From positions 1-64,000 of the IMG/VR virus record IMGVR_UViG_3300035670_000060: a stretch of 64,000 nucleotides of DNA. One strand, 5' to 3'. The notes beneath the pieces were generated by a model. It was given only the letters and a program-made list of their open reading frames with translations. It made no database searches and had not been told where the DNA came from. The stretch's first letter is position 1; each line of letters starts with the position of its first letter. The position numbers and the translations under genes were made by a program. Below are positions 53,906 through 63,839 of the stretch, piece after piece. The stretch is from a virus.

Positions 53906-54649
53906 TTATCCAATCATATCAGATACAGGTAATGAATATGAAGATATCATCTCAGCTTCTAATGCTGTTATTTCATCTGTTGCTTCATCCCAAATTTTTT
54001 GACCGTTGAATGTCAGACCACCCGGCATTTGGAGACCTTCAAACTTTTTTAAATTTTCGCCCCACTGTTTTTTAATTTGTGCTGTTGCATATCGTTGAAG
54101 CCATCTGTCACCCCATACATCTGAGTATGTATCAGGATCCACTTTCTGGTATGCTTCAATAATAATATATTCGCCAGTCACAACTTTTGCTGACCAATCC
54201 ATATCGATATAAAGTCTGTTTACATGGCGATTATATCTGAGACTTTGGCGCCCAACAAAAAGTTCTTCAGCAAGCGCAACATTCTGAAGTGCCATGTAGT
54301 ATGGTGCGAAAGGTCCATAATTGAATGCAAACAGATCGTTCAGTGCGATTTGATATCGAATGTTGAACAGATTGTTTGAAGAATAAGAGTCACCAATATC
54401 AAATATATTAATGATACCAATGACTGCTTCTGGAATGGTTATGTATTTGTTTGTCTTGTCTTCAGCAGTGACTGGATGTGCTAAATAAACTTTCTGTGTA
54501 CCATCAAAATGATAATCGTGATAATACGCTAATGCTTCGTCAATTCTATCTTCAACTTGTTCATCCGCTACATTAATTTCAAGTACAGGTTTCCCTAACT
54601 TACGTAAGCAATATTCTTTAAATTCATCTCTACTGGTAGGTTTAGCCAT
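53906..54649 (-). CDS. 13: gp13, neck protein
   Basis: A 247-residue neck protein with SRDEFKEYCLRKLGKPVLEI, the conserved EDRIDEALAYYHDYHFDGTQ, and GDRWLQRYATAQIKKQWGEN. It assembles at the portal end of the packaged head together with gp14. It is the first gene of a late unit, preceded by an exact late promoter (54676-54683) and followed by gp14 after 2 bases. It is complete. Confidence 0.95.
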   Translation of the reverse strand: MAKPTSRDEFKEYCLRKLGKPVLEINVADEQVEDRIDEALAYYHDYHFDGTQKVYLAHPVTAEDKTNKYITIPEAVIGIINIFDIGDSYSSNNLFNIRYQIALNDLFAFNYGPFAPYYMALQNVALAEELFVGRQSLRYNRHVNRLYIDMDWSAKVVTGEYIIIEAYQKVDPDTYSDVWGDRWLQRYATAQIKKQWGENLKKFEGLQMPGGLTFNGQKIWDEATDEITALEAEMISSYSLPVSDMIG

Positions 54650-54685: not shown

Positions 54686-54898
54686 TTAACAGATTAGTGC
54701 TTTGCCATCAATCAATAGTAAATTGCCTTTGCATGCCAGATTCCATTTTTTTACACCATGCTCGTAAGTACATTCGTCATACACGGGCACGTTGATTTCT
54801 AAACTTTTAGCTAAGACTTCTTCGCCATTTTCAAAAATTCTCCAGAAAAAATCAGTGTCGCCGTGCTGTGTATTAAATCGAATATGGTATTGCTTCAT
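54686..54898 (-). CDS. Small hypothetical protein with the APS kinase-like gene
   Basis: A 70-residue protein: YHIRFNTQHGDTDFFWRIFE, then NGEEVLAKSLEINVPVYDEC, EHGVKKWNLACKGNLLLID. The pattern R-x-N-T ... W-R-x-x-x-x-G-x-E-x-L ... G-V-x-K-W-N-x-x-C-x-G recurs in marine T4-like phages beside the APS kinase-like gene. It is likely beta-rich and Cys-containing. Its start overlaps the stop of that gene by 4 bases, so the two are translated together. It may be an accessory factor for that pathway (inference). Confidence 0.7.
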   Translation of the reverse strand: MKQYHIRFNTQHGDTDFFWRIFENGEEVLAKSLEINVPVYDECTYEHGVKKWNLACKGNLLLIDGKALIC

Positions 54899-55731
54899 TC
54901 AATTCCCATTTCTTTTCGAATTTTGGTTGCTGAAATAGCATGTATCGTATCATCGAAAACTTCTTGTTCAATCTTGTAGCCGACATCTCTACCGTATGTG
55001 ATGTTTACAATGTTTGGAACAATCAAAATTTCATACTGACCTTGATAGAGTGGATCTAAGTCTCTTCGAATATAGTTTTTAACTTCTTCAATTGCAAATG
55101 GATTACTTCCATTCCAACCCTGACAATCACGAATCATGATACATACTTGACCAGTTTTTGCTAACGCTCTTTCAAATAACGCACGATGACCTTTGTGCCA
55201 TGGTTGCCAACGACCTAACATCTGCACAGTTTCTTTGCGCCAATCAAAAGTTGGTCTTCTTTTACGACTTAAAATTGCTTCACCTACATACTGCACCCAC
55301 TTTTCAGCATTCTTTTCGTTGATTCTAAAATCATAGATTTCTGGTGGCACAAATGCTTTGTTCGTATCTTCATAACGACCAGCATCAATCGTATCCATCC
55401 AGATTGTCCAGTCTGCTTTAAAGTTGTGACGCATTTCAGCAAGTGGTGCTACAAAATCACAAATGACATATTCGCCAGTGCATCGCATTGCAAATTCTGC
55501 CATCCTCAACGACTGCCGAATGCGACCTTCTTTTGAAAAGTCCCAATCATTGAATCGCTTTCGAATGTCATCAGCATTGAACCAATCAACTCGTGCGTTC
55601 ATTCGAGGATATGGAGCGTCACTAAGTGTGTTTAAAGGACGCTCTCCGTGAATCTCAAGATAAGTCTTTAATCGTTCTGCAAAATATGTTTTACCTGAGC
55701 CAGGCAAACCCATAATCAATATTTTTTCCAT
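54895..55731 (-). CDS. APS kinase-like P-loop domain fused to an HxGH nucleotidyltransferase
   Basis: A 278-residue two-domain enzyme. Residues 1-155 are an adenylylsulfate-kinase-like domain: Walker A GLPGSGKT (8-15), FNADDIRKRFNDWDFSKEGR and EYVICDFVAPLAEMRHNF, the APS kinase pattern. Residues 165-278 are a nucleotidyltransferase with GRWQPWHKGHRALF (HKGH at 179-182) and ISATKIRKEMG (ISxTxIR). Together they could form APS and then PAPS, or charge a different sulfate or sugar donor; the second domain's substrate is not visible. The start is the ATG at 55731, not the upstream TTG. It is 18 bases after an 81-residue gene, and a sulfotransferase gene lies just upstream. Confidence 0.82.
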   Translation of the reverse strand: MEKILIMGLPGSGKTYFAERLKTYLEIHGERPLNTLSDAPYPRMNARVDWFNADDIRKRFNDWDFSKEGRIRQSLRMAEFAMRCTGEYVICDFVAPLAEMRHNFKADWTIWMDTIDAGRYEDTNKAFVPPEIYDFRINEKNAEKWVQYVGEAILSRKRRPTFDWRKETVQMLGRWQPWHKGHRALFERALAKTGQVCIMIRDCQGWNGSNPFAIEEVKNYIRRDLDPLYQGQYEILIVPNIVNITYGRDVGYKIEQEVFDDTIHAISATKIRKEMGIE

Positions 55732-55748
55732 TATATAAAACTCCAAAA

Positions 55749-55994
55749 TTATTGAGCGATTGCTGCACTTCCCTGAGTGATTGCGTTATGCAAATCAGAA
55801 ATGTCTTCGCCAGATCCGGACACATCTGGATTTCCAACTACTAGTTTAAGATGCTCAACATTTCGATCAATGTTTCCACGAAGTTCGTCAGAAAGTGTTG
55901 CGCCTGCTGCAATCTTTGCTAAAGAATCTTCAATGACCCAAACGCTATCTCTTGCTGCTCGAATTGTATATAGAACTTCTGGTGTTGCTGGCAT
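55749..55994 (-). CDS. Small conserved hypothetical protein
   Basis: An 81-residue helical acidic protein, beginning MPATPEVLYTIRAARDSVWV with IEDSLAKIAAGATLSDELRG and a terminal DISDLHNAITQGSAAIAQ. It has one predicted long helix pair and no Cys. It occupies the place between the sulfotransferase and the APS kinase-like gene in one operon (2 bases from the sulfotransferase stop). No function known to me. The Ala/Gly-rich, low-charge middle suggests a small structural or virion-associated protein. Confidence 0.68.
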   Translation of the reverse strand: MPATPEVLYTIRAARDSVWVIEDSLAKIAAGATLSDELRGNIDRNVEHLKLVVGNPDVSGSGEDISDLHNAITQGSAAIAQ

Positions 55995-55995
55995 A

Positions 55996-56946
55996 TTAGC
56001 CTCCTATGAGTTTAGTATCTTCGGTTTCTGTTGGTGCATCCGATTCGGATGTTGGTTCTTCAAAATTTGCGTCAATCTCTTGTAGATTTCTCCAAAATGC
56101 TGTATTTTCACATCGCTTTAAAATTTCTTCTGAAAGAACTTCTTTAGGATCGACTGACGCTCTATTTATTGTACTACGAACTTCATGCATGTCTGCAAGC
56201 CCATAAACTTCAGCATCTTTTTCTTTATGTATGTTTTCAATTTTGCTAAAGTCATGTGCGAAATATTCTTCACCAAGAAATTCATAAATCTTTCGCATTG
56301 TATCATCTGGATTCTCAAGCAAATCGTTATATTCAATGAAGTGAAGATTTTTCTGTCTACCTTCCATTAGTGCTTGTTGAATGCCAAAATAGCTTTGGCC
56401 AAGAATTCCATTTGGACTAGCTAAGAACGTACATCGATTATCATCGTTTAAAGGCGTGTTTGTTTTGATAAGCATTTCATCAATGAAATTAATCTTACCT
56501 TCACCGCCGTATGGATTTCTGCGTTGCATTGTAATAAATGATGTAAGAATTTCTTCAATGTCACGAACTGGGCATAAAACTTTTGGTTCAATTCCAAAAT
56601 ATCCAGGAATGTAATGTAGTCGATTCACCCATGACCGATTCTTGTCAATGATGACAGGCTTATCTACGTCAGAATAATAATTATCCATGACACTAGAAAT
56701 AATTTTTGCAGCTTGTGGTAACTTAGGAAAAGCCATAAAAAGTTCATCGTTTGAAAAAGAATTTTCAAGCGTGAGCATTGTAGGTACCACAGGAGAACTT
56801 GGACCAGAATAGACTCTTGGATTTTGATTTAGAATCGATGATAGAAGTGTACTTCCTGATCTTGGAAGCCCAGACATAAAGTAGTATGTCTTCATTGACG
56901 CTCTCATCATTTCTTCTCTTATAATTTCTTTAATCATTTCTTTCAT
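55996..56946 (-). CDS. Sulfotransferase
   Basis: A 316-residue PAPS-dependent sulfotransferase. The 5'-phosphosulfate loop is YYFMSGLPRSGSTLLSSI (P-loop 26-33), followed by a 3'-phosphate site near KPVIIDKNRSWVNRLHYIPG and PVRDIEEILTSFI. The region LLENPDDTMRKIYEFLGEEY is the conserved C-terminal helix of the family. An amphipathic N-terminal helix (MKEMIKEIIREEMMRA) is extra. Its substrate (carbohydrate, protein tyrosine or other) is not readable. It is in one operon with the APS kinase-like fusion and glycosyltransferases. The start follows GAGGTGATGAACA, with a late-promoter match 44-51 bases upstream. Confidence 0.88.
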   Translation of the reverse strand: MKEMIKEIIREEMMRASMKTYYFMSGLPRSGSTLLSSILNQNPRVYSGPSSPVVPTMLTLENSFSNDELFMAFPKLPQAAKIISSVMDNYYSDVDKPVIIDKNRSWVNRLHYIPGYFGIEPKVLCPVRDIEEILTSFITMQRRNPYGGEGKINFIDEMLIKTNTPLNDDNRCTFLASPNGILGQSYFGIQQALMEGRQKNLHFIEYNDLLENPDDTMRKIYEFLGEEYFAHDFSKIENIHKEKDAEVYGLADMHEVRSTINRASVDPKEVLSEEILKRCENTAFWRNLQEIDANFEEPTSESDAPTETEDTKLIGG

Positions 56947-56957
56947 TGTTCATCACC

Positions 56958-57860
56958 TCATTGTTGATTGTTTACAGATTCTATAATTTTATTTATATCA
57001 AATAATTTAACGTCATCTGTATAAGGATATTCAATTTCATTTCCGTTGAAGTCAAAGTCAAATAAGTAACTGCCAGGAAGTTTGAAGTTATATGGCACAT
57101 CGGTACAAATATTATCATGCATATCATAACCAAAAACTTTAGGGCTTGTACCATTCCATAAAACAGTGGATTTCTTTCTAAGTGCTGCTGCTGCATGTTG
57201 CAACGAAGAGTCTATAAGAATTCTCTTTTTGCTATGTAAAAGAATACTAAAAAATTCCATTAGACTGAGTGCTTGTTGCTGCGTAGCAAAAACATGTTCA
57301 GCGCCTTCAAGTTTTGGTGAGTTCATCTTGGTAACTTGGTAAATATGATAGTCTTTTTTGTAATAGTCTATCAATTCTTGTGCTAATTCTGGCGGCATGT
57401 CTCTTGTCCATGAATAAGGCTTAGCATCTGTTGTCATTGGACCGCCACTTGTATGTATAACCATGATAGGCTTTTTTCTCAACCAAAATTTTCTTGAAAG
57501 ATCCCATTGAAGTTTATTAAACTTTACCTCTGGGCGCTCATTGTCGAATTTTAATTGATGCATTTCGCACCAATTTTCAATCAGTCGTTTCCGTTTATGT
57601 ATATGATTTGTCGTATAGTATGGTTCGTGATGAAAAATCAGAGAATCTTTATCTTGAATGTATTCTTGGTAGAAATATTGTGTGCCACCTAACAGAAAAA
57701 CTCTGTCAACAAAAGAAAGATTAATAAAAATATCAGGATATGCACATACGACAATGAGTTTTCTGTCAGGAAAATTGTTTTTAATTGCTTTTGCAACAGC
57801 GGTTGCTGCTACGTGTTTTCCAATACCGCCTTGAAGATGAAAAATACTATATTTCTTCAT
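56958..57860 (-). CDS. GT9-like (heptosyltransferase-type) glycosyltransferase
   Basis: A 300-residue GT-B fold enzyme. The N-terminal domain has FHLQGGIGKHVAATAVAKAI, a nucleotide-sugar Gly-rich loop, and the C-terminal half has IHTSGGPMTTDAKPYSWTRD, and RILIDSSLQHAAAALRKKST then VLWNGTSPKVFGY, the donor-binding pattern of ADP-heptose-type transferases. It probably transfers a sugar to a lipopolysaccharide-like or virion acceptor. The adjacent two enzymes are GT2-like. In the operon it is followed by the sulfotransferase, suggesting that the glycan is later sulfated. Confidence 0.8.
   Translation of the reverse strand: MKKYSIFHLQGGIGKHVAATAVAKAIKNNFPDRKLIVVCAYPDIFINLSFVDRVFLLGGTQYFYQEYIQDKDSLIFHHEPYYTTNHIHKRKRLIENWCEMHQLKFDNERPEVKFNKLQWDLSRKFWLRKKPIMVIHTSGGPMTTDAKPYSWTRDMPPELAQELIDYYKKDYHIYQVTKMNSPKLEGAEHVFATQQQALSLMEFFSILLHSKKRILIDSSLQHAAAALRKKSTVLWNGTSPKVFGYDMHDNICTDVPYNFKLPGSYLFDFDFNGNEIEYPYTDDVKLFDINKIIESVNNQQ
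56990..56997 (-). promoter_or_regulatory. Late-promoter match before the sulfotransferase gene
   Basis: TATAAATA on the minus strand inside the 3' end of the GT9-like gene, 44-51 bases before the sulfotransferase start. Exact to the late consensus, but it lies inside coding sequence. Confidence 0.6.
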
Positions 57861-57861
57861 A

Positions 57862-58590
57862 TTATAACCTTTCTTTTGTTGCTTTCACGATGTCCCACGT
57901 TCTCGCATTTTTGATATGATGAAAATGATATGCATTACTTGCGTCTAAAGCTAGTCTTTTAGTTATGTCATAATTTTTATGCTCTGAAACAAGCGTTTTT
58001 GATATCTCACCTTTGATCCTATTCGTCTTGAATATGTATATATGTTCGTTGTTCTGCGTCAGATATTCATCACCGAACCAGATTTGATATAGTCTTGGTA
58101 TCACCTTATACGAAGTTCGCTTTATAAACATACATACACCAAATGCATATCCTTGACCACCTATAGGTTGAGTTTTATCATGTTTGAGTTTGAACAATTC
58201 ATCTTCACCTTCATGAACACCAACTGTATAATTATCTGGTGTGTTTTTTAAATGAACGCCTACAACATCAATCTCTTTAAAATCTACTGCTGAGAAATCA
58301 CGAAATACACTCGATTCAACTTCTATGTCATCATTGATAATGGAAAGAACATTCGCTTTTGATCTATAGTAACCTTCATTCCACGAAGGATTTACGTAGT
58401 TGTTTTTACCATAACAAATGATATGCAACTTAGATGAATTCAATTCGTCAACTCTTTTTGGTCGATTTGCTTTGTCATTGTCAATCAAAAAGATATTTCC
58501 AATATACTCGCATTCAATGTAGGTGTCAAGTGCGGATAGAAAATTTTTAGACTTCCACATTGTAGGAATTACAACGTCAATTGTATTCAT
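57862..58590 (-). CDS. GT2-like glycosyltransferase
   Basis: A 242-residue GT-A glycosyltransferase. It begins NTIDVVIPTMWKSKNFLSAL, has the metal-binding region LSIINDDIEVE (DD pair for the DxD site), a conserved GGQGYAFGVCMFIKRTSYKV and WFGDEYLTQNNEHIYIFK, the acceptor/catalytic ED-like part. It overlaps the upstream GT gene's stop by 4 bases and is 2 bases from the GT9-like gene. The three transferases together could build a short oligosaccharide. Confidence 0.82.
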   Translation of the reverse strand: MNTIDVVIPTMWKSKNFLSALDTYIECEYIGNIFLIDNDKANRPKRVDELNSSKLHIICYGKNNYVNPSWNEGYYRSKANVLSIINDDIEVESSVFRDFSAVDFKEIDVVGVHLKNTPDNYTVGVHEGEDELFKLKHDKTQPIGGQGYAFGVCMFIKRTSYKVIPRLYQIWFGDEYLTQNNEHIYIFKTNRIKGEISKTLVSEHKNYDITKRLALDASNAYHFHHIKNARTWDIVKATKERL

Positions 58591-59249
58591 AAATCTTCTA
58601 TGTTATAATTTTTCATTGTCGATTCAAAATTACCTTTATACATCTTATTGCCTAAATGGTAAACTGTATGATTCGGTTTGATCCAGATTTTGTAACCGAG
58701 TTCTCGAATCTTATTTGAAAGTGTAATATCTTCACCAACAAAAGCTCCGTTTATGTATGTAAATTCACATATGTTTTTTAATTTCTTACTACGAAAATCT
58801 AATTCAACATTAGAGATCCATAAATCTTTAATGACTTTTTTGGAAAGTTTTAGAAAGCCTGTTCCTACACGAGATGCTGTCAGATAACCATCTTTCGGAT
58901 CTCTCTTGACCACACTGTTAAAATAAACGTTATACTGTATATTTGTATCACCTTTATTTACAACTGGTATAGCGATGACATCTTTTGGTGAAGAAAGAAT
59001 TTCAATCAATGCTTTCTCATCCCACATTTCATCATCGTCAATGAATACCATTGCATCATAATTTTCTTTGTATGCTAAATTAAAGAGTTCATTTCTGGCC
59101 ATTGGAAGAATACTTTCATTGGCCAGAAACACTACATTGATTGACAAATCGTGTTTCAATCCTAACTTAATAGATTCACATAAACTATGAACGAAATATG
59201 CGTCTACTTTTTGATCTAAACATGGTGTAGCAATTAATATACGTTTCAT
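58587..59249 (-). CDS. GT2-like glycosyltransferase, paralogue of 11146-11982
   Basis: A 220-residue GT-A enzyme opening KRILIATPCLDQKVDAYFVH, with FLANESILPMARNELFNLAY and VFIDDDEMWDEKALIEIL (DDD metal site) and GTGFLKLSKKVIKDLW. This order is the same as in the glycosyltransferase at 11146-11982 (ATPMYGG, FFMFNESLITRARN, FIDSDITF, GTGFMLIRKNVFEKM). It lacks the low-complexity tail of that protein. It is the first gene of the glycosyltransferase-sulfotransferase operon and has a good sigma70-like promoter. Confidence 0.83.
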   Translation of the reverse strand: MKRILIATPCLDQKVDAYFVHSLCESIKLGLKHDLSINVVFLANESILPMARNELFNLAYKENYDAMVFIDDDEMWDEKALIEILSSPKDVIAIPVVNKGDTNIQYNVYFNSVVKRDPKDGYLTASRVGTGFLKLSKKVIKDLWISNVELDFRSKKLKNICEFTYINGAFVGEDITLSNKIRELGYKIWIKPNHTVYHLGNKMYKGNFESTMKNYNIEDL

Positions 59250-59284
59250 AACATACCTTTTCTTTCATCATTGTTCACACAGCC

Positions 59285-59313
59285 ATTGTATATATTGTCA
59301 CATAAAATGTCAA
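59285..59313 (-). promoter_or_regulatory. Sigma70-like promoter of the glycosyltransferase-sulfotransferase operon
   Basis: Minus strand: TTGACA (59313-59308), 17-base spacer, TACAAT (59290-59285). Consensus 6/6 and 5/6. It overlaps the stop codon of the giant fibre gene and lies 36 bases before the start at 59249. Confidence 0.75.
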
Positions 59314-62300
59314 GTAACTCTTTTCTCTAGTGCTTCAAGTCTACTCTTAAGTGCATCTATTTCATTCGACATCTCATTAATTGTATTGACAAGAACTGGT
59401 ATCAAATGATCATTTGTCATTTGAAGTTTTTCCGGCATCTCTTTACTTACGATGACAGGATTGTCACCTTCAGCCTCTAGAATGTTTTGTGCGCTGAAAC
59501 CATATCGTTTTCTGGTATCCGTAATTTCACCAGTGTCTCGATTTTTAAATGAGAATTCAATTGGTGTAATCTTTCGAAGAAAATCTCTACCGTGTGGAAC
59601 AGGTCCGAAGATTGTTTTGTCACGAACATCTGAAACAGTAGTCCAACCAATTTGAATTTGAGCGCAAGTATGTGCATTATTGCCCATGATGATGCGATTT
59701 GATTCAGTTGTGATATTAGCTAGACCAATTGTTCCAACAGCAGCATTGCATCCAAAGAAAAGATTGTTGCTGCCAGTGGTGTTACAGTAACCAGCACATT
59801 GACCAGCAAAGATGTTATTATTGCCAGTGGTGTTAGCAGCACCAGCAGCATTACCAATGAAATTATTGTTAGAGCCAGTGGTGTTATTTAAACCAGCACT
59901 TTGACCAAAGAAATTATTACTACAGCCAGTGGTATTGCCATAACCAGCACTTGAACCAATGAAATTATTAAAACCGCCAGTGGTATTGTAGCGACCAGCA
60001 CTTGCACCAAAGAAATTATTACTAGTGCCAGTGGTGTTGTTTAGACCAGCACTTGCACCAAAGAAATTATTACTAGTGCCAGTGGTGTTACTGCAACCAG
60101 CATTCACACCAATGAAATTATTGTAACTGCCAGTGGTGTTCTTGTAACCAGCACGATTACCAATGAAATTGTTATGTCCGCCAGTTGTGTTATAGTAACC
60201 AGCACGATTACCAAAAAAATTATTTTGGCTGCCAGTGGTATTATAGTAGCCAGTTTGCCTACCAAAGAAATTATTATAATTGCCTGTGGTATTATAGAAA
60301 CCTGCTAATGGACCAAAGAAATTGTTACAATTACCTGTTGTGTTACAGTAACCAGCACATGCACCAAAGAAATTATTAAAAAATCCAGTGGTATTATTGT
60401 TACCAGCCACGTAACCCATAAAATTATTATAAGCGCCTGTGGTGGTATTGCGACCAGCACATAAACCAGCGAAGAAGTTGTAACAGGCATCGTTACAGTA
60501 ACCAGCTGCTAAACCAATAAAAATATTACCAATGCCTGTGACGTTAAAGCGACCTGCATCTTTTCCAAAGAAAGTATTATTGCTACCAGTTGTATTTTTA
60601 CAACCAGCAAGATTACCAATGAAAGTGTTATAACTGCCATTAGTATTACAGAGACCAGCACATTGACCAATGAAAGTATTGCCACTGCCAGTGGTATTGC
60701 CATAACCAGATACAAGACCAAAGAAATTATTATGACATCCAGTGGTGTTGCTGGAACCAGCTTGATTACCAAAGAAATTATTACAACTGCCAGTGGTATT
60801 AGTTATGCCAGCAGCATTACCAAAGAAATTATTATGACAGCCACTGCTATTGCCGCGACCAGCATATCGACCAAAGAAATTATTAAAACAGCCAGTAGTA
60901 TTGTAGCGACCAGCACAACAACCAATGAAATTATTATAACTGCCAGTGGTATTGTAGCGACCAGCACAAAAACCAATAAAATTATTACTAGTGCCAGTGG
61001 TGTTAGAGAAACCAGCACATTGACCAAAGAAATTATTATTACAGCCAGTGGTATTGGAGCGACCAGCACTTGGACCAAAGAAATTATTATTGCTGCCAGT
61101 GGTGTTACAGAAACCAGCCCATCTACCAAAGAAATTATTAAAACAGCCAGTGGTGTTATTGCGACCAGCACATAGACCAAAGAAATTATTATAGCTGCCT
61201 GTTGTGTTAACCAAACCAGCACTATTACCAATGAAATTATTATTGCTACCCGTCGTGTTACAGTAGCCAGCCGACTCACCAAAGAAATTATTATGACTGC
61301 CTGTTGTGTTAAAGCGTCCGGTATAATAACCAAAGAAATTATTATTGCTGCCTGTTGTGTTCAAACAACCAGCACTTCCACCAAAGAAATTATTCTTCCA
61401 GCCTGTTGTGTTACATAAACCAGCACAACGACCAAAGAAATTATTATAGCTGCCTGCTGTGTTAAAGTAACCAGCACTTAGACCAAAGAAATTATTACAG
61501 CCGCCTGTTGTGTTACAGAAACCAGCACTTTGACCAAAGAAATTATTATTACAGCCAGTGGTGTTACTGTAACCAGCAGCGCAACCAAAGAAATTATTGT
61601 GATTGCCAATTGTATTGGAAAAACCAGCACTTTGACCAAAAAAGTTATTCCAAGCACCACTGATATTACACATACCAGCACAAAGACCAGCAAAGAAGTT
61701 ACAACCGCCAATGATATTGTAGCGACCAGCATTTAAACCGATAAAAGTATTATGACAGCCTGTTGTATTACAGAAACCTGCACATCGATTAATAAAGGTA
61801 TTATATTTGCCATTGGTATTAAAACGACCAGCATCACGACCAAGGAAAATATTATCATTACCATCGATATTAGCGTAACCAGCACATTGACCAGCAAAGA
61901 AGTTATAACTGCCAGTGATGTTACAGTAACCAGCAGCGCAACCAAAGAAATTATTATTACATCCAGTGGTATTATTAATACCAGCAAAATGACCAAAGAA
62001 ATTATTAAATCTAGCAGTGGTGGTAGAACGACCTGCTTGATTACCAATGAAAGTATTACCAAATCCAGTGGTATTAGCGTAACCAGCATAGTAACCAATG
62101 AAATTATTAGAACCACCAGTGGTGTTACAGTAACCAGCACATGTACCAGCAAAGAAGTTATGACAGCCAGTGGTATTACTGTAACCAGCAAGATAACCAA
62201 AGAAATTATTCATACTGCCAGTGGTGTTACTGTAACCAGCACATAAACCTGCGAAAAAGTTATGACTACCAGTGGTGTTACATAAACCAGCACATGCACC

Positions 62301-63839
62301 AATAAAAGTATTATGACTGCCAGTGGTGTTAAAGCGACCAGCGCATAAACCTGCGAAAAAGTTATAGCTACCGTAGTTATTGGCTAAACCAGCACTGTTA
62401 CCGAAGAAATTATTGTGACTGCCAGCATTCAAATAACCAGCAAAATGACCAAAGCTATTATTATTACAACCAGTAATGCTAAGAAAACCAGCATAGCGAC
62501 CAAGGTAATTATTATGACTGCCAGTGGTATTGGAGCGACCAGCTTGATTACCAAAAAAGTTATTATAACAACCAGTGGTGTTAAGACGACCAGCAGCTAG
62601 ACCAAAGAAATTATTAAAACTGCCAGTGGTGTTATTGCAACCAGCACTTTGACCAAAGAAATTATTACCAGCGCCAGTGGTGTTACGAAAACCACTATTA
62701 CATCCTAAAAAGTTATTAAAACTGCCAGTGGTGGTGGCAAAACCTGAAGAAAAACCTGCGAAGAAGTTATGACATCCAGTGGTGTTACAGAAACCAGCAC
62801 ATTGACCGAAGAAAATATTACCAGCGCCAGTGGTGTTATTGTAACCAGCATATTGACCAATGAAAATATTAAAACATCCTGTGGTGTTGTAGCGACCAGC
62901 ACAGGAACCAGCAAAGAAGTTGTGACTACCAGTGCTATTGGCATAACCAGTATAACAACCAAAGAAATTATTATGAGATCCTGTGGTGTTATTGAGACCA
63001 GCAGCAAGACCTAAAAAATTATTCCAACTACCTGTAGTGTTATTTCTACCTGAATTATTACCAATGTAATTATTATTACAGCCTGTAGTATTGTTACGAC
63101 CTGTATATTTTCCAATAAAATTATTGTTAGATGCTGTTTCATTATATAATCCAGCACCTTTACCAAAGAAATTATTGTAAGAACCTGTGCTATTATACTT
63201 ACCAGCTTCATGACCAAAGAAATTGTTATAACATCCGCTACTATTACATCGTCCAGCATTTAAACCAAAAATATTATTAAAACATCCTGTAGTGTTAATA
63301 CAACCAGCATTTTGACCTAAGAAAATGTTCCAACTACCAGCTAAGTTGCATCGGCCAGCAGATTCACCTAAAAAGATATTACTGACGCCAGTGGTGTTAC
63401 AAAAACCAGCTCGTGATCCTGCAAAAAAGTTGCTGCTTCCTCCACCAAAATTACATGACATGCCACTTATTATATTGCAATTACCTTTAGTTACAAATGC
63501 ACTTGTAGTTTTTTCTGTATACCATGCACCACCTGATGCAAAAATTCGTGTGCCTTGTTCTCTATACAATATAATAGATGCTCTACCGTCATCGATAGTT
63601 TCAGCACCTTGCGGATCAATAGTTAAATTAAACGCTACGTTATTGAAAATTTTAAATGACATTCCCTCGGAACTTGCTGCTGGAGGTAAATTGATCGTCC
63701 CCGCTGCTGTTCCGTTATAAACAATGATGTCATTATTATCTTCAGGAGATACCGTATATGCACTCGCAGTGATATTTTTGGTAAGTTCTCTATAAGGAAC
63801 TTGACTGTTGAGTGCCGATATCTGATAAGGTCTTGCCAT
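59310..63839 (-). CDS. Giant tail fibre with about 70 NTTG repeats and S74 chaperone domain
   Basis: A 1509-residue fibre protein. The N-terminal 120 residues are a beta domain (SALNSQVPYRELTKNITASA, ending FASGGAWYTEKTTSA). From about 130 to 1370 it is built of 17-residue units, consensus NNFFGxxAGxxNTTGxx, about 70 copies. The C terminus is an intramolecular chaperone of the endosialidase/S74 type: TVSDVRDKTIFGPVPHGRDF, IEFSFKNRDTGEI, RYGFSAQNI and LVNTINEMSNEIDALKSRL. The Ser in SDVRDK and its Lys form the self-cleaving dyad, so the last 120 residues should be cut off after trimer folding. A 525-base stretch is almost shared with the 33028 fibre. Confidence 0.9.
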   Translation of the reverse strand: MARPYQISALNSQVPYRELTKNITASAYTVSPEDNNDIIVYNGTAAGTINLPPAASSEGMSFKIFNNVAFNLTIDPQGAETIDDGRASIILYREQGTRIFASGGAWYTEKTTSAFVTKGNCNIISGMSCNFGGGSSNFFAGSRAGFCNTTGVSNIFLGESAGRCNLAGSWNIFLGQNAGCINTTGCFNNIFGLNAGRCNSSGCYNNFFGHEAGKYNSTGSYNNFFGKGAGLYNETASNNNFIGKYTGRNNTTGCNNNYIGNNSGRNNTTGSWNNFLGLAAGLNNTTGSHNNFFGCYTGYANSTGSHNFFAGSCAGRYNTTGCFNIFIGQYAGYNNTTGAGNIFFGQCAGFCNTTGCHNFFAGFSSGFATTTGSFNNFLGCNSGFRNTTGAGNNFFGQSAGCNNTTGSFNNFFGLAAGRLNTTGCYNNFFGNQAGRSNTTGSHNNYLGRYAGFLSITGCNNNSFGHFAGYLNAGSHNNFFGNSAGLANNYGSYNFFAGLCAGRFNTTGSHNTFIGACAGLCNTTGSHNFFAGLCAGYSNTTGSMNNFFGYLAGYSNTTGCHNFFAGTCAGYCNTTGGSNNFIGYYAGYANTTGFGNTFIGNQAGRSTTTARFNNFFGHFAGINNTTGCNNNFFGCAAGYCNITGSYNFFAGQCAGYANIDGNDNIFLGRDAGRFNTNGKYNTFINRCAGFCNTTGCHNTFIGLNAGRYNIIGGCNFFAGLCAGMCNISGAWNNFFGQSAGFSNTIGNHNNFFGCAAGYSNTTGCNNNFFGQSAGFCNTTGGCNNFFGLSAGYFNTAGSYNNFFGRCAGLCNTTGWKNNFFGGSAGCLNTTGSNNNFFGYYTGRFNTTGSHNNFFGESAGYCNTTGSNNNFIGNSAGLVNTTGSYNNFFGLCAGRNNTTGCFNNFFGRWAGFCNTTGSNNNFFGPSAGRSNTTGCNNNFFGQCAGFSNTTGTSNNFIGFCAGRYNTTGSYNNFIGCCAGRYNTTGCFNNFFGRYAGRGNSSGCHNNFFGNAAGITNTTGSCNNFFGNQAGSSNTTGCHNNFFGLVSGYGNTTGSGNTFIGQCAGLCNTNGSYNTFIGNLAGCKNTTGSNNTFFGKDAGRFNVTGIGNIFIGLAAGYCNDACYNFFAGLCAGRNTTTGAYNNFMGYVAGNNNTTGFFNNFFGACAGYCNTTGNCNNFFGPLAGFYNTTGNYNNFFGRQTGYYNTTGSQNNFFGNRAGYYNTTGGHNNFIGNRAGYKNTTGSYNNFIGVNAGCSNTTGTSNNFFGASAGLNNTTGTSNNFFGASAGRYNTTGGFNNFIGSSAGYGNTTGCSNNFFGQSAGLNNTTGSNNNFIGNAAGAANTTGNNNIFAGQCAGYCNTTGSNNLFFGCNAAVGTIGLANITTESNRIIMGNNAHTCAQIQIGWTTVSDVRDKTIFGPVPHGRDFLRKITPIEFSFKNRDTGEITDTRKRYGFSAQNILEAEGDNPVIVSKEMPEKLQMTNDHLIPVLVNTINEMSNEIDALKSRLEALEKRVT
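59745..63440. repeat. 51-bp tandem repeats encoding NTTG units (fibre 2)
   Basis: About 70 imperfect 51-bp units, same family as at 33175-36800 and about the same total length. Non-coding strand view: CCAGTGGTGTTA, then ACCAGC, then AAAGAAATTATT. The block 62270-62790 is collinear with 34243-34768. Confidence 0.9.

Follow-up and report, generated by a model that had tools for sequence, protein, structure and literature searches.

Does a phage that encodes an APS kinase joined to an HxGH nucleotidyltransferase, close to a sulfotransferase, make its own activated sulfate, and on what would this sulfate be spent? The question is raised by a cassette of seven genes in an uncultivated virus (IMG/VR record IMGVR_UViG_3300035670_000060) of 113,653 bases; the window analysed here, 64,000 nucleotides from position 1 of the record, falls inside this record, and a nucleotide search against known phages returned no match. 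A search of the open-licence literature for a phage PAPS module retrieved just generic reports of cysC/cysH AMGs.

Organization of the cassette

The seven ORFs were confirmed on the minus strand where the first-pass annotation had placed them, encoding proteins of 220, 242, 300, 316 (sulfotransferase), 81, 278 (fusion) and 70 aa, with little or no space between neighbours (-4 to +17 bp, negative values being overlaps). Directly upstream lies the gene of the S74 fibre (59310-63839, minus strand, 1509 aa), in which the Peptidase_S74 domain expected from the annotation was found (3.5e-6), and directly downstream that of the head-tail adaptor Ad2 (53906-54649, minus strand; phrog_211, 1.8e-42), which served as same-site control. 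The giant fibre is made of NTTGxxNNFFGxxAG-type repeats and a second repeat fibre is present in the same record (64327-68664). A sigma70-like promoter match (TTGACA-17-TACAAT, positions 59313-59285, minus strand, 11 of 12 consensus positions) does exist ahead of the cassette; however, since promoter-like sites in this region are no commoner than in shuffled sequences (17 found vs 20.1 +/- 3.9 expected), the annotated transcription of all seven genes as one operon from this promoter is only plausible.

The sulfotransferase (55996-56946, minus strand, 316 aa) is the next enzyme gene upstream of the fusion and its label is firm (PF13469 8e-15, 56.1 bits vs a cut-off of 27; PF00685 1.5e-11). In an alignment, its PAPS-binding motifs are intact, with the 5'-PSB loop GLPRSGST and the 3'-phosphate motif R128...S136 at a spacing of 8. 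It is 40% identical to marine phage sulfotransferases, e.g., of Synechococcus phage S-SKS1; in contrast to our cassette, no fusion was found in those records by tblastn.

The three genes annotated as glycosyltransferases are present, but their labels are weak. The 300-aa GT9-like protein (56958-57860, minus strand) reached an E value of 0.026 in Pfam and of 0.012 to heptosyltransferases in a profile comparison, the 242-aa GT2-like protein (57862-58590, minus strand) 0.016 in a profile comparison to GT2 enzymes, and the first, 220-aa GT2-like protein (58587-59249, minus strand), which carries a FIDDDE motif and belongs to phrog_1574 of unknown function, gave neither a Pfam nor a PDB match. Two small proteins of unknown function accompany the fusion: the 81-aa protein (55749-55994, minus strand) recurs just upstream of it, and the 70-aa protein (54686-54898, minus strand), for which a Pfam search gave no match, just downstream.

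The kinase half of the fusion

The fusion (54895-55731, minus strand, 278 aa; start ATG at 55731, a TTG farther upstream would give 283 aa) is a candidate compact PAPS synthase. Its description as an APS kinase-HxGH fusion was borne out for the kinase half (PF01583, 1.6e-6, 28.7 bits vs a cut-off of 21.1), while HxGH nucleotidyltransferase models were matched weakly. The kinase-fold domain (aa 1-157; 55261-55731, minus strand; P-loop GLPGSGKT) was modelled by AF2 with a mean pLDDT of 87 and superimposes best on APS kinases (Z 18.4, rmsd 1.9, 141 residues), followed by gluconate kinase (Z 15), so that structure prediction did not lead to an unrelated kinase, a doubt that the first-pass annotation had itself raised. 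The profile search against the APS kinase family, which had been proposed as a check, likewise agreed: a profile of 45 relatives retrieved the APS kinases in the PDB with 8.4e-16. The domain nevertheless scores below the curated NCBIfam equivalog TIGR00455 (17.9 bits vs 138.7 needed).

In CysC of Mycobacterium tuberculosis, APS is contacted by Asp480, Arg483, Phe492 and Arg497, and the lid provides Lys562 and Phe576 as further contacts (PMC4373884). The counterparts of the first four, D54, R57, F65 and R70, are invariant in the 45 sequences, as are the Gly and Lys of the P-loop; the phosphosulfate and adenine contacts predicted from this comparison are invariant. The fusion kinase thus shares with CysC the fold, the P-loop and the APS-contacting Asp, two Arg and Phe. 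It differs in a short lid that lacks the usual KGLY...FTGI stretch, where the APS-contacting Lys and Phe are not alignable and a DTNK-F motif is conserved instead, and in always occurring, in phages, with or near an HxGH domain. Indeed, searching the phage collection gave no kinase half separate from the nucleotidyltransferase (NT) half.

The nucleotidyltransferase half

The NT domain (aa 158-278; 54898-55260, minus strand; motifs GRWQPWHKGH, YGRDVGY and ISATKIR), a candidate ATP sulfurylase, is about 110 aa in size and was modelled with a pLDDT of 90. Its nearest relatives by sequence are NMN adenylyltransferases (profile 7.8e-11) and by fold PPAT (Z about 11) and NMNAT (Z about 10), yet it stays far below the curated NMN adenylyltransferase scores (26-30 bits vs cut-offs of 127-397). 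With the archaeal-type enzyme NadM it shares a GRFQPFHKGH-type HxGH motif, the ISxTxxR motif and the Rossmann-like fold of NMN adenylyltransferases; it differs from NadM by a shorter second half, by neighbours from sulfur metabolism and by its own YGRDVGY motif, which is invariant apart from a replacement of the D by G in some members.

The profile search that had been proposed against the ATP sulfurylase family gave no PF01747 match, and hhalign comparisons with eight SAR11 Sat proteins remained under 5% probability. The QxRNPxHxxH sulfate/ATP motif is not present in NT, which has GRWQPWHKGH instead, whereas the SAR11 Sat motif reads TRNVPHRAH; the human ATP sulfurylase has an HNGH motif and R421 (PMC11697783). 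An orthologous ATP sulfurylase was therefore rejected, also in view of the NMN-adenylyltransferase-like profile, and since it does not match this family, NT is classed as working like an ATP sulfurylase without being counted among its members. With Sat and CysDN it would have in common the proposed reaction, and NT and Sat share the HxxH and IS.T..R signatures; it differs from them in that sequence homology is undetectable beyond these superfamily motifs and in having neither a PUA-like domain nor a GTPase. The annotation had named a close match to an NAD nucleotidyltransferase lacking any connection to sulfur as evidence against its reading: the likeness was found, but NT is also strongly tied to sulfur metabolism, by aprMBA and by sulfotransferases, as described below.

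Gene neighbourhood in phages

Relatives of the fusion were found in viral contigs at at least 593 places, and cultured carriers include the Stenotrophomonas phages Suzuki, Bhz60 and DLP_6, the Xanthomonas phage AhaSv and the Clavibacter phage 33. More distant phage matches to NT alone carry the annotation NMN adenylyltransferase. Sat was not found in the 50 phage records that were searched.

Sulfotransferase-like genes are enriched around the fusion (31/246 non-redundant genes within 3 genes vs 4/197 at a distance of at least 7 genes; Fisher 2.4e-5), as counted with a motif that was tuned on examples near the fusion and then applied equally to near and far genes. By Pfam only, Sulfotransfer_3 accounts for just 6/120 near neighbours and is not among the 25 commonest far-control families listed, so that the motif count weighs more. 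Across unrelated phages the neighbours belong to Sulfotransfer_1, _2, _3, _4 or Stf0, i.e., five Pfam families, and the cultured phage Suzuki is among the carriers in which a sulfotransferase-like gene flanks the fusion. One sulfotransferase cluster (c15) initially had no Pfam match and one of its members matches Stf0 weakly, and another (c160), mainly Asp/Asn hydroxylase with weak sulfotransferase similarity, was left out of the firm count. The sequence of locus L361 was left out of the context alignment as out of frame.

At the same site above Ad2 in relatives of this phage, the fusion and the sulfotransferase occur together in 9 cases, the fusion without sulfotransferase in none, the sulfotransferase without fusion in 2 and neither in 32 (Fisher 9.8e-8), and the gene in these 2 sulfotransferase-only loci is a weak sulfotransferase-like one. 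The phages and genomes in all these counts are related to each other and often incomplete. A minority of phages keeps a glycosyltransferase-sulfotransferase cassette without the fusion, one of them in a 236-kb record, so that the link is not obligatory; use of host PAPS would fit these cases.

Further genes were noticed in the neighbourhood. A DUF2061 membrane protein (PF09834) is encoded directly downstream of the fusion at 25 loci (e.g., L156:3840-4043, L075:1902-2105, L144:6755-7000) and might be a functional partner. In Casjensviridae phages, a NADAR-domain gene (8.4e-26; L098:7559-8002) separates the fusion from the sulfotransferase-like gene. Two fusion genes stand in tandem or near-tandem in single phage loci (L013, L019, L025, L026), the second copy being 316-338 aa long. 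Near the fusion, a region of weak sulfotransferase similarity is joined to an Asp/Asn beta-hydroxylase domain (L062:6123-7439, L033:6114-7430), and in other phages apparently fibre-like RCC1-repeat proteins adjoin sulfotransferase and fusion (L051:1705-2907 and related loci).

The two domains in SAR11, SAR86 and other bacteria

SAR11 is an abundant ocean bacterium, and both domains occur on chromosomes of SAR11, SAR86 and other bacteria; 25 of 80 loci encode them as a fusion and 48 as two mostly adjacent, overlapping ORFs. In the tree, phage sequences are interspersed with bacterial ones, so the kinase-NT unit has moved repeatedly. Among 33 bacterial genomes with both domains, Sat was found in 3, CysD in 1 and another APS kinase in 4, but Sulfotransfer_3 in 25. 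On the complete SAR86 chromosome G075, which encodes two sulfotransferases, the kinase-NT pair is the sole sulfate-activation route found. Operons are ordered kinase-NT-sulfotransferase (L359) or sulfotransferase-kinase-NT (L361). Just upstream of a SAR86 kinase-NT pair lies a gene for a YeiH-family membrane protein (PF03601, L308:5049-5948), and a similar protein is encoded a few genes upstream in L313 (2397-3302).

In 118 SAR11 genomes the two halves follow different partners: NT tracks the APS reductase AprA (59/75 vs 5/43; Fisher 5.5e-13) and the kinase tracks the sulfotransferase (33/51 vs 14/67; Fisher 1.7e-6), with P values that ignore relatedness and genome gaps. NT occurs without the kinase in 25 of the 118 genomes, 22 of which have AprA; in 19 of these 22, aprA is at most 7 kb away from NT, whose typical position is immediately upstream of aprM-aprB-aprA, the adjacent genes being identified as AprA (1e-299) and AprB (7e-56). 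APS is the one metabolite common to APS reductase, APS kinase and the PAPS route. A CADD/TenA-like gene (TIGR04305, 1e-89; L346:4195-4860) adjoins NT and aprMBA in SAR11. In a few SAR11 genomes (G208, G097), a separate Sat and another APS-kinase-like gene stand side by side (L365/L368), in G208 near a weak sulfotransferase match; this pair is a candidate alternative PAPS island.

Proposed function and alternative explanations

From the observed folds, conserved residues, gene linkage and co-occurrence we infer the catalytic activities, their order and the acceptor as follows. The C-terminal HxGH domain would catalyze ATP + sulfate <-> APS + PPi like an ATP sulfurylase, though from a different superfamily branch; the N-terminal APS-kinase-like domain would phosphorylate APS at the ribose 3'-OH to PAPS and thereby pull the unfavourable APS-forming step; and the neighbouring sulfotransferase would use PAPS on an acceptor. 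We consider it likely that the fusion is such a compact bifunctional PAPS synthase with a non-orthologous ATP sulfurylase as second domain. On balance, though with somewhat less confidence, the HxGH protein of about 110-130 aa probably represents a previously unrecognised non-orthologous ATP sulfurylase in general: alone beside aprMBA in SAR11 it may convert APS to sulfate + ATP, closing the sulfite-oxidation pathway, whose final enzyme SAR11 seemed to be missing; where SAR11, SAR86 and hundreds of phages have it paired with, or fused to, the small APS kinase, it may supply PAPS for sulfation.

The proposed enzyme resembles animal PAPSS1/2 in that an N-terminal APS kinase and a C-terminal sulfate-adenylylating HxGH-type domain would be united in one chain with the same expected net reaction. 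It differs by its length (278 aa vs over 600), its short kinase lid and its NMNAT-like NT domain of about 110 aa, which is no orthologue of their ATP sulfurylase domain; with this second domain outside the ATP sulfurylase family, the fusion lies outside the domain definition of PAPS synthetases.

The kinase might instead make PAPS from host APS while NT performs an unrelated nucleotidylation, such as that of NMN to NAD. The NMNAT-like sequence of NT would agree with this, as would the NADAR gene that separates the fusion of phage Suzuki from its sulfotransferase-like gene, but most of the SAR11 and SAR86 genomes that carry the pair have no other source of APS, NT by itself adjoins aprMBA, and no NAD pathway is among the top neighbour families of the fusion, so that we regard this explanation as unlikely.

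Slightly less probable still is a different 3'-phospho-nucleotidyl donor. The cytidine diphosphoramidate kinase of Campylobacter is a relative of APS kinase, and by analogy a lid unlike that of APS kinases could reflect a shifted substrate, and NT is not an ATP sulfurylase by family; against this, the residues for contact with phosphosulfate and adenine do not vary, and the unit is partnered by sulfotransferases of the PAPS type and by APS reductase. It is very improbable that the fusion and the sulfotransferases only occupy a common moron hot spot by the fibre genes, metabolically unlinked: many phages do have both in variable, fibre-proximal regions, but the two are also linked at other locations, where the sulfotransferases come from unrelated families, and in the chromosomes of SAR11 and SAR86 (e.g., L359, L361). 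Equally improbable is a NadR-like NAD enzyme (nicotinamide riboside kinase plus NMN adenylyltransferase), rejected as first choice despite the NMNAT similarity of NT, because the kinase is by fold and residues an APS kinase and not a NadR kinase and the genes around it belong to sulfur metabolism. A DNA/RNA end-healing enzyme, considered for the DNA ligase and phosphatase beside the fusion in DLP_6 and L105, is unsupported elsewhere.

The PAPS synthase reading agrees with the central claim of the first-pass annotation, that the phage makes activated sulfate for its sulfotransferase. This prediction is well supported by the kinase fold, the APS-contact residues, the recurrent sulfotransferase linkage and the way the two halves are distributed among SAR11 and SAR86 genomes. 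The most plausible acceptor would be a glycan on which the products of the neighbouring GT-like genes act and which sits on the fibre or the host surface; building of such a glycan and sulfation of the virion or LPS are conceivable extensions, and the S74 fibre is a possible candidate acceptor.

Implications

If the proposed function is correct, phages would carry a self-contained sulfation module near their fibre genes, and a full PAPS route would be available to organisms that possess sulfotransferases but no known sulfate-activating enzymes. Most SAR11 bacteria were described in 2023 as being without ATP sulfurylase despite having AprAB (PMC10356861), and the sulfate pathways of Pelagibacteraceae were called incomplete in 2025 (PMC12636525). 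The NT half is a strong candidate for this seemingly missing enzyme, and its assignment would put a name to the ATP sulfurylase reported absent from most AprAB-bearing SAR11.
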